Virus record (IMG/VR): IMGVR_UViG_3300022200_002144
Location: 1-21,376 of that record
Strand: one strand, 5' to 3'
DNA length: 21,376 bases
DNA from: a virus
The notes beneath the pieces were generated by a model, which was not told where the DNA came from, searched no databases, and saw nothing but the letters and a program-made list of their open reading frames with translations. This document shows positions 18,388 through 20,564 of this stretch, one piece after another. The position numbers and the translations under genes were made by a program. Within the stretch, counting starts at the first letter, position 1; each line of letters opens with the position of its first letter.

Positions 18388-18423
18388 TCTGTCACCTCTT
18401 ATAGTATATATGAGGATATAAGC
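18388..18423. promoter_or_regulatory. 36-base divergent spacer with two SD sites
   Basis: The spacer separates two divergent TTG-started genes. On the minus strand GAGGTG (18398-18393) lies five bases before the TTG at 18387. On the plus strand GAGG (18412-18415) lies eight bases before the TTG at 18424. The centre is TA-rich (TATAGTATATATG). It is too short to hold two complete promoters with leaders, so transcription in each direction must start within the opposite gene or farther upstream. No reliable promoter could be identified. Confidence 0.6.
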
Positions 18424-18723
18424 TTGAGTGAAGAATCCGACCTAATAGATTTTATAGACCTAATCAACCATACTTTACATGCTGATTTCGTAGAGAAATG
18501 GAGATACAAGTATTCTGAGAAGTTTATTAAGCACTTTCAAATAAAGATACTTGAATCATTGAGTAAACAGAAGACTGTAAAGAAGACTAGTCTATATAAT
18601 TACCTTCATAAGAAGTGTAGGTACTCAGAAGATCAAATCATTAATTTCTTTGAAACCATAGAGATTGAACTCTATCATCCATTAATCACCAATGACAAAC
18701 CACGACCGAAACGAAATACTTGA
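18424..18723 (+). CDS. Unknown small acidic-to-basic helical protein, 99 aa
   Basis: No family is recognised. The N-terminus is acidic (SEESDLIDFIDLI) and the rest is Lys/Tyr-rich and probably all helical. KKTSLYNYLHKK and SEDQIINFFETIEIEL could form a helix-turn-helix-like C-terminal half, which would allow a nucleic-acid or RNA polymerase-binding role, but this is only a guess. It starts at TTG with GAGG eight bases upstream; no internal Met exists, so no alternative ATG start is possible. It is divergent from the tail cluster and on the same strand as the primase. A possible membrane-protein gene overlaps its last 32 bases in another frame. It is real in all likelihood because both start and codon content look normal. 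Confidence 0.65.
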   Translation: MSEESDLIDFIDLINHTLHADFVEKWRYKYSEKFIKHFQIKILESLSKQKTVKKTSLYNYLHKKCRYSEDQIINFFETIEIELYHPLITNDKPRPKRNT

Positions 18724-18850
18724 TGTAGCCCACCTATCTGTACTAGTATCCTCTCTTGGAGGACTCGGAGCAGTTCTGGGCGGATTAGCGTACTGCCTAT
18801 ACTTTTCATTTATTCTTCTTGTCGGAGTTCTTTCTCTTTTCTTCTTTTAA
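18692..18850 (+). CDS. Possible small membrane protein, 52 aa
   Basis: An ATG at 18692 opens a 52-residue frame with a polar N-terminus (MTNHDRNEILDVAHL) followed by an almost wholly hydrophobic stretch (residues about 13-52) that could make two membrane helices. It overlaps the 3' end of the 99-residue gene by 32 bases and the 3' end of the antisense nuclease gene by 45 bases, and it fills a gap otherwise empty. The final hydrophobic residues are partly forced, because they lie opposite the lysine-rich codons of the nuclease tail. No SD is visible. A small membrane protein, perhaps a holin or superinfection factor, is possible. The call is uncertain. Confidence 0.4.
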   Translation: MTNHDRNEILDVAHLSVLVSSLGGLGAVLGGLAYCLYFSFILLVGVLSLFFF

Positions 18851-19600
18851 ACACTCGATCCTCTTGTTCACGACCATCTGATCGTTGAACTCAGGACAGA
18901 GCTTCTTATATCCGCACCAGTTGCAGAAGTTATTACGGATGGGTTTGAACTCGTCCGTTTTCTTTTTACGGATCTCCCAGACTTGCTTAACCTTCTCATT
19001 CAGGTATTGTTTGATTTGATTAGGGAAAAACTTAACATGTACGAAGTTACCAGTCAGGGGATAGAAATGTGCAGCCACGATCTTGTCGATAGGCACCTTC
19101 ATCATCTTGTGGATAGCGTAGGCATAGCCCTGTAACTGTCGGTCCTGAAACAGGTCTACATTGGAAAGCTCCCTCTTGGAGGTCTTGTAGTCGATGATCA
19201 GATAGGACCCATCCTTACCCTTGACGATACGGTCGATGATCCCATTCAGTTTGATGTCCTTCTCCTGATCGTACACTACCTCGTACACCATTTCAGTGGC
19301 GACCGTCTCAGACAGGTTCTTGTTGAACTCGAAGAAGTTGGTCAGACACTTATCGACCTTCTTGAGCATAGAATCAGGAAAAGAGTAGTTATTTCTCTCC
19401 TGATCGGCTATTATACGGAGAGCATCAACGCTACTAGCATCAACCCCCAACTCAAGAATCCTATGAATGTACGAACCAAAATGCAGAGCATCGGCGTTTC
19501 CAGCCTCCTCTTCAAAGCGGTTAATGTAGCGATACTTGTACTTCAAGTGGCATTCAGCGTAAGTTTTTGATTTCGATTCGGAGATAGTATTTATGAACAC
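18806..19600 (-). CDS. Cas4/RecB-like PD-(D/E)XK exonuclease with Fe-S cysteines, 264 aa
   Basis: The nuclease core is clear: a GxxxH at 42-46 (His46), Asp123 in GIIDRI, Asp137 and Lys139 in IIDYKTS, and a Gln-Leu-Gln-Gly-Tyr motif at 155-159. These are the metal-binding and catalytic residues of RecB/Cas4/AddB-type nucleases. Cys17 near the N-terminus and Cys226, Cys229 and Cys235 (C-x2-C-x5-C) form the four-cysteine set that holds a 4Fe-4S cluster in the Cas4/AddB group. The role is probably DNA end resection in phage recombination or replication. Translation starts at GTG (19600) with GAGGTG five bases upstream, both inside the opposite primase gene. The tail is Lys-rich. No CRISPR genes accompany it, so adaptation is not suggested. 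Confidence 0.88.
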   Translation of the reverse strand: MFINTISESKSKTYAECHLKYKYRYINRFEEEAGNADALHFGSYIHRILELGVDASSVDALRIIADQERNNYSFPDSMLKKVDKCLTNFFEFNKNLSETVATEMVYEVVYDQEKDIKLNGIIDRIVKGKDGSYLIIDYKTSKRELSNVDLFQDRQLQGYAYAIHKMMKVPIDKIVAAHFYPLTGNFVHVKFFPNQIKQYLNEKVKQVWEIRKKKTDEFKPIRNNFCNWCGYKKLCPEFNDQMVVNKRIECLKEEKRKNSDKKNK

Positions 19601-19611
19601 GGTTTCACCTC
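19580..19611. promoter_or_regulatory. Overlapping divergent starts of nuclease and primase genes
   Basis: The nuclease GTG (19600-19598) and primase ATG (19593-19595) overlap by eight bases while reading away from each other. The minus-strand SD GAGGTG (19611-19606) is five bases before GTG. The plus-strand SD GGAGA (19580-19584) is eight bases before ATG. Each SD lies within the other coding sequence, so both messages must be transcribed through the opposite gene start and would overlap antisense at their 5' ends. No intergenic promoter can exist here. Confidence 0.75.
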
Positions 19612-20564
19612 AGTTTATTAGAGATTACCTTCTTGAAAAGTTCAAGGGTAATCGGAGAATATCCTCTGACAACACTGAGCTTATCGTCCCTTCTGTATTT
19701 ATAGCTAACGACTGGAAGAAGCACATGTCGATCAATCTTAATACAGGGATGTTCCAGTGCTTCAAGACAGGCAACCGTGGAAACTTCATTTCTCTGTACG
19801 CTTTCCTAGAGGGAAAGACTTACAAGCAGGCTGCAAACGACATCAGCTTCAAGCACATGATGGACGAGGACTCCTACACAGAGGATGTCATTGAGGAGCC
19901 TGTAGAGCGTGTTGACCTTACTCTCTCCGAGATTACTGAGCATGATGCGATCTCCCCAGAGAACCACCGCCAGCGTGCGTGGGCCTTCCTACAGTCCCGT
20001 AAGCTCTGGGACGGGAAGAAGAAGTATTACCTATCCGAGTCTGGTCGTACTGCTGGTCGTCTGATTATTCCATATGGAGAGGAGATTTTTTACTATCAAG
20101 CACGCACTTTGCGTGACGAGACACCTAAATACCTAAACCCAGCCTCTTCTGAAGGCTGGCCCAATTCATCCCATGTACTCTACGACTACGATGAATCCGC
20201 TGATCACCTTGTAATTTGCGAAGGTCCGCTTGACGCGATTGCCCTCCAGATTCAGGGCGTCAATGCAACCTGCACGCAAGGCTGTTCGGTTTCCGATCAC
20301 CAGATCGAACAGCTATCTACCTTCAAAGGCAAGATCATTATCGGCTATGACAATGACGATGCTGGTAAGAAGGGTATTACTCGGTTCGATTATCTGCGCC
20401 GACTAAAAAGGATGGCAGACCTCTACATCTGCCATCCTACTTCGGAATTTAAAGACTGGAACGAAGCACATATCCAAGGGCACAACCTACAGGATTATGT
20501 TCGTAAACACACGAAGCCGTATGATTACGACTACCTCATTGATCACCTCCTTACGACACTGTGA
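19593..20564 (+). CDS. DnaG-type phage primase (zinc-site remnant and TOPRIM), 323 aa
   Basis: Residues 156-183 (GRLIIPYGEEIFYYQARTL and PKYLN) fit the region of DnaG-like primases just before TOPRIM. The TOPRIM domain follows: Glu210 in EGPLDAIAL and Asp253/Asp255 in GYDNDDAGKKG give the Glu and DxD metal ligands. The N-terminal part (about 28-70) aligns by eye with the CHC2 zinc finger, ending in QCFKTGNRGNF, but Val32, Val35 and Thr59 stand where cysteine or histidine ligands are expected and only Cys56 remains. The product would make RNA primers at the replication fork. It lacks a helicase domain. Length is similar to gp61-type phage primases. It starts with ATG at 19593 (GGAGA upstream) and converges on the next gene with a 14-base overlap. 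TOPRIM identification is secure; primer synthesis is inferred. Confidence 0.88.
   Translation: MNTVSPQFIRDYLLEKFKGNRRISSDNTELIVPSVFIANDWKKHMSINLNTGMFQCFKTGNRGNFISLYAFLEGKTYKQAANDISFKHMMDEDSYTEDVIEEPVERVDLTLSEITEHDAISPENHRQRAWAFLQSRKLWDGKKKYYLSESGRTAGRLIIPYGEEIFYYQARTLRDETPKYLNPASSEGWPNSSHVLYDYDESADHLVICEGPLDAIALQIQGVNATCTQGCSVSDHQIEQLSTFKGKIIIGYDNDDAGKKGITRFDYLRRLKRMADLYICHPTSEFKDWNEAHIQGHNLQDYVRKHTKPYDYDYLIDHLLTTL

Follow-up and report, generated by a model that had tools for sequence, protein, structure and literature searches.

We analysed the full length of a virus record of 21,376 bases (the window), which is probably a fragment. Within it, a nuclease gene and a primase gene lie head-to-head amid minus-strand tail and baseplate genes, and overlap by eight bases at their starts. 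The features of the region are as follows, by window position.

18388–18423, between divergent genes: AT-rich spacer separating F and G (CTTATAGTATATA)
18424–18723, plus strand: G, a 99-aa helical protein head-to-head with F, 35–92% identical in relatives
18692–18850, plus strand: H, a 52-aa hydrophobic small ORF predicted from sequence, with a convergent 45-bp overlap with the nuclease 3' end
18806–19600, minus strand: nuclease, PD-(D/E)XK of the Cas4/AddB/RecB type, with a GTG start at 19600–19598
19580–19585, plus strand: primase Shine-Dalgarno (SD)-like GGAGAT inside the nuclease gene (ΔG −6.6 kcal/mol), found in the window's clade and not conserved
19593–19600, both genes: 8-bp divergent start overlap ATGAACAC, combining the primase ATG and the nuclease GTG
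19593–20564, plus strand: primase, DnaG/T4 gp61-type TOPRIM, with its ATG at 19593
19606–19611, minus strand: nuclease SD GAGGTG, antisense to primase codons 5–7 (ΔG −6.9 kcal/mol)
19616–19623, minus strand: putative nuclease −10 element CTCTAATA, 15 nt upstream of the start and antisense to primase codons 8–11
20551–20564, between convergent genes: 14-bp overlap between the end of primase (3') and gene I, which is on the minus strand

The initial annotation had reported the 8-bp overlap of divergent starts and had placed the pair between structural genes. The overlap coordinates were exact and the flanking genes are indeed structural, but the plus-strand insert is larger than described, as G and H also lie on the plus strand.

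Assignment of the nuclease was based on matches to PF12705 (E = 3.2e-28; 99.8 bits against a gathering threshold of 22), PF01930 (E = 5e-6) and the exonuclease family phrog_69, with UvrD/Rep-type helicase-nucleases (6ppu and 7sjr) and 4ic1 as relatives in the PDB. Its catalytic motifs (D123, D137-Y-K139 and Q155xxxY159) and four cysteines (Cys17, 226, 229 and 235) were invariant in the alignment of relatives. Against the Cas4 equivalog model TIGR00372 it scored 44.3 bits, below the cut-off of 65, and we did not assign it to that equivalog.

The primase matched Toprim_2 (PF13155; E = 3.7e-14; 53.3 bits against a gathering threshold of 22.1), the DNA primase family phrog_47 and, by profile, DnaG structures. 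The TOPRIM residues are intact, with E210, D253 and D255 (the E and DxD residues) invariant, and the predicted model (pLDDT 90) matched T4 gp61 (8gao_G) with a TM-score of 0.56. The DnaG equivalog TIGR01391 was rejected (85.7 bits compared to a cut-off of 283.6). Most of the DnaG-type zinc-finger cysteines have been lost, C56 being the only one remaining in the N-terminal region of the window's primase.

The protein encoded by G is among the best conserved of the region. Its predicted model is all-helical (pLDDT 92); profile searches gave no family match and structure searches gave no fold match in the PDB or BFVD, including any that would identify it as T4 gp33.

Isolated phages gave no nucleotide match to the window, and tblastn returned distant matches only, with no close isolated phage. 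Scans of viral contigs yielded about 190 loci, 177 of them with both genes. Apart from one distant jumbo-phage locus, those with both genes represent a single group of uncultivated marine T4-like myoviruses that carry baseplate genes resembling gp6, gp25 and gp53. Wherever enough flank was available, the gene order was F(−), G(+), nuclease(−), primase(+) and then I(−), either adjacent or one gene further on; this cassette lay between the tape-measure side and further structural genes. The nuclease is thus an antisense gene interspersed between same-strand G and primase in these relatives.

Almost every gene is on one strand in three long contigs (100–130 kb). The few minor-strand genes include primase, G, a UvsW-like helicase, a RusA-like resolvase and a gp55-like sigma factor, the last weakly matched (phrog_234; E = 0.0037). 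Short sigma-70-like/gp55-like ORFs were seen on the minor strand at L200:3041-3385 and L208:13291-13698, and gp33 was not found in the group. A 130-kb contig from the Prochlorococcus single-cell genome AG-409-P03 (QCKN01000003.1; L212) carries the same nuclease–primase cassette, a tentative hint that Prochlorococcus may be the host of these phages; the cyanophage marker psbA was found in none of 12 phage contigs. In the distant locus, from a 595-kb jumbo phage (LR756511.1; L048), the two genes are ~25% identical to those of the group and head-to-head about 0.65 kb apart, with a methyltransferase-like gene and a 54-bp gap between them. This pair suggests that the linkage may be old; no relatives of its primase were found in viral contigs.

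We then compared the start junctions. All related loci with both genes had them head-to-head, down to ~36% identity, in line with the earlier proposal that the pair is linked in evolution, and the overlap reads ATGAACAT or ATGTACAT in most relatives. Dereplication left 77 junctions. Primase had its first in-frame ATG at position −8 in 53 of these, −2 in nine, −17 in two and 0 or +1 in a few; in three more the nuclease start had moved by one codon so that CATG is shared. A survey for relatives with separated genes, suggested by the initial annotation as a challenge to the overlap, turned up only three (L030, L106 and L178), with gaps of 9–46 bp. Since the overlap is present in most of the 77 loci, it is a conserved feature and not a mis-called start, and a chance origin is excluded by the same conservation. 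Both reading frames are conserved as proteins and their starts are either kept or replaced nearby, as expected of a true divergent overlapping pair. Almost all loci that lost the ATG at −8 have another ATG no more than a few codons away, an argument for these being true primase starts.

The nuclease start, which might have lain downstream and away from the overlap, does not: the N-terminus M-F-I-N-T-I-S is kept from residue 1 in relatives, and an in-frame TGA four codons before the GTG means that translation cannot begin further upstream. In a phylogeny from which the N-termini had been left out, at least 14 changes of primase start state were needed, and at least six between overlap and non-overlap. 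What is conserved is therefore the nuclease start, not the length of the overlap, which drifts.

Synonymous sites in the primase gene were examined using 36 disjoint sequence pairs. Synonymous identity was 132 compared to 83 expected in codons 1–7 (z = 8.4) and 172 compared to 115 in codons 6–12 (z = 8.5), and was ordinary from the window of codons 11–17 on, so that the freezing ends at codon 12. Constraint peaked at Pro6 (32/32, 13.9 expected), Ile9 (34/36, 20.6 expected) and Arg10 (26/27, 12.3 expected), and these peaks map to the antisense nuclease SD and −10 motif. No significant excess was found by the same method in codons 2–8 of genes I, E and gp53, and F and G, another head-to-head pair, had a milder excess than primase. 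Two further stretches were constrained: nuclease codons 2–8 (z = 6.7), for which the leader does not account, and the last primase codons, at the overlap with gene I (z = 7.7).

A GAGG-type nuclease SD of −4 kcal/mol or stronger was found in 76 of the 77 relatives. The initial annotation held that each gene hosts the other's SD; this is true of the window, where both are strong and lie inside the partner's ORF, and across relatives it stands for the nuclease only. A strong primase SD was present in just 4% of them, the window included, and we rejected it as a conserved feature. SD energy taken alone was not significant when synonymous codons were resampled per locus (mean rank 0.44), because the amino acids encoded there (A/S-P-Q) already favour an SD.

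The octamer CTYTAATA occurs 15 nt before the nuclease start in 71 of 77 relatives and differs at a single base from CTATAATAG, a promoter-like motif of these phages. Its mean mismatch to CTATAATA was 1.2, compared to 2.8 in synonymous resamples; for a single relative p was only about 0.1, so the strength of this result lies in the sum over related sequences. Most relatives have an inner mismatch, the second base of TATAAT being C or T instead of A. The motif is a perfect CTATAATA in L030 and L106, where the spacer is no longer coding, and in L080, where Arg10 is replaced by Ile; spacing and motif differ in the deepest clade (L032, L186 and L190). No −35 element is conserved, and no synonymous constraint was detected at the −35 position for the nuclease.

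Similar elements occur elsewhere in the group. In the long contigs, TATAAT occurred upstream of genes 26 times compared to 8.1 expected, a three-fold enrichment, and several genes share a layout in which the motif is followed by 12–16 nt containing GAGG. At the head-to-head junction of uvsW, ACTATAATAGT-type sites were present in 53 of 55 dereplicated loci. The near-invariant ACTATAATAGT there typically ends ~3–7 nt before the uvsW ATG (for example, in L191, L059 and L182), which suggests that the uvsW mRNA may be leaderless and, as the site is near-symmetric, that it may act as a bidirectional promoter also serving the SD-bearing neighbor. In another contig (G002:C1:64291-64320; L204), the resolvase and its neighbor start immediately next to each other (CATATG), and the neighbor's first codons (M-E-P-Q-N-Y-Y-S) contain both the SD and the CTATAATA motif of the resolvase (motif, 15 nt, GAGG). 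Judged by its sequence, this junction provides an independent second example of the design. From these patterns we infer that the CTYTAATA element is probably the nuclease promoter.

Our preferred explanation, which we consider probable, is that the nuclease has a 5' regulatory module of its own, written on the strand opposite the primase gene and embedded in that gene's 5' end, and that primase is expressed by read-through from F/G. The module would comprise the −10-only promoter-like CTYTAATA, a short leader and the GAGG SD; because it lies inside the primase 5' end, primase codons 1–11 would carry two messages. The overlap would persist because, with the nuclease start and module fixed, only a few positions (−17, −8, −2, 0 and +1) let primase start without damage to them. 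The F/G spacer is a probable promoter both of F and of a plus-strand unit that would take in G, H, the antisense strand of the nuclease gene and primase, and primase would most likely be read through from there in the manner of a noncontiguous operon. Such read-through is likely in a nearly unidirectional genome whose minor strand codes for primase, a gene that has no promoter-like motif beside its start and usually lacks an SD. Mutual interference would follow from the anatomy of the junction; mutual antisense control, akin to the antisense coupling proposed in the initial annotation, is a hypothesis.

A plus-strand primase promoter inside the nuclease gene was also considered. It was rejected as a universal feature, as 67 motif matches compared to 44 expected contained one clade-specific cluster only, ~190 nt upstream of primase in 27 loci. 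In the window this site (19407–19416, plus strand) reads CTATTATA, and in clade relatives CTATAACA, with mild synonymous constraint. It is a possible clade-specific primase promoter and, if so, would weaken the read-through idea.

Several other explanations deserve consideration. One is that polymerases or ribosomes on one strand block those on the other, which would keep nuclease and primase production apart in time. Such a mutual-exclusion switch is compatible with the preferred explanation and adds a function to it. The opposite strands, with a promoter and SD inside the partner gene, would make interference likely, and excludons and noncontiguous operons have precedents that include phages (PMC7154746); the separated variants L030, L106 and L178 nonetheless survive, and we regard a switch as possible but doubtful. 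A broader form of the idea, which we consider unlikely, is that head-to-head junctions throughout the group encode one gene's full promoter and ribosome-binding site in the other's first eleven codons, and that at nuclease/primase this would form a strand-exclusive switch from end resection to priming or back, with CTATAATAG as a phage-specific −10-only promoter. Evolutionary inertia would instead require no regulation: a compact genome made the overlap once, and indels in the shared bases break both starts. Compact junctions are usual in these contigs, the synteny of the whole block is conserved and closely related overlaps are inherited, but the nuclease leader stayed in place through all the changes in primase start state, and the synonymous freezing reaches ~25 bp past the overlap and stops at codon 12, with control genes lacking it. 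These observations make inertia improbable as the explanation.

The constraint could also serve translation initiation of primase, through an AU-rich, unstructured start, and have nothing to do with the nuclease. Start regions are often AU-rich, and an open one may matter for a primase without an SD. We nevertheless find this very unlikely, as the frozen codons coincide with the antisense SD and −10 motif, the Pro6 codon (CCT) is not rich in A and U, such constraint is missing from genes I, E and gp53 and the separated variants keep the SD and motif outside the primase gene. We give equally little credence to a joint task of the two proteins, for which the initial annotation had proposed priming at resected ends, with the overlap co-regulating the complex. 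The genes are linked in every relative, and the distant LR756511 pair is also head-to-head with one gene between; F, G, I and the adjacent tail genes are equally syntenic, however, so that linkage is weak evidence. Moreover, the related nuclease of Campylobacter phages abuts uvsW on the same strand instead, and Arthrobacter phage Kitkat has no annotated primase within 5 kb of its related nuclease. These settings speak for recombination-linked replication broadly and do not single out resected-end priming.

With the nuclease module inside the primase gene as the preferred explanation, the junction is a deeply conserved case in which base-resolution evidence places the start signals of a second gene in synonymous positions of the first, the free parameter being the other gene's start codon. 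Start regions need promoters and ribosome-binding sites, the presumed reason why divergent overlaps are avoided; the junction shows how such conflicting signals can fit, offers a clean and recodable test system and gives a probable promoter motif for a widespread group of uncultivated marine phages.

The proteins themselves resemble known families. The nuclease has the catalytic motif and four cysteines in common with Cas4/AddB/RecB-type PD-(D/E)XK nucleases and phage exonucleases (phrog_69), but falls under the NCBI cas4 equivalog cut-off and is stand-alone, with no CRISPR. The primase is like T4 gp61 and DnaG in its TOPRIM core and overall fold, but mostly lacks the zinc-binding cysteines and falls under the dnaG equivalog cut-off. 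T4 late promoters are 8 bp long, lack a −35 element and depend on gp55/gp33 (PMC2988020). The putative nuclease promoter would likewise be a −10-only 8-bp element without a −35, and the group encodes a weak gp55-like sigma, with gp33 not found; its motif, however, is CTATAATA(G) and not TATAAATA, and we therefore do not claim membership of that class.

At the level of gene arrangement, divergent gene overlap is already a known kind. The initial annotation called it rare, and published surveys agree: divergent cases make up ~1% of well-characterised prokaryotic overlaps, with all 75 long ones (over 60 bp) that were checked being misannotated (PMC2478687), and they are strongly under-represented, which has been put down to the start signals that genes require (PMC2174442). 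The present pair is alike in having two opposite-strand coding regions with common 5' ends, but here a short overlap is kept to ~36% identity and the antisense constraint is mapped; what is new is a well-conserved form with start signals in the partner's codons. The noncontiguous operon/excludon menE-menC-MW1733-ytkD-MW1731 of S. aureus (PMC7154746) offers a parallel in gene order: here an interspersed gene, the nuclease, runs antisense to flanking genes that share a strand (G, H and primase). In contrast to that operon, the interspersed nuclease also overlaps the start of the next gene and has its putative control region inside it.
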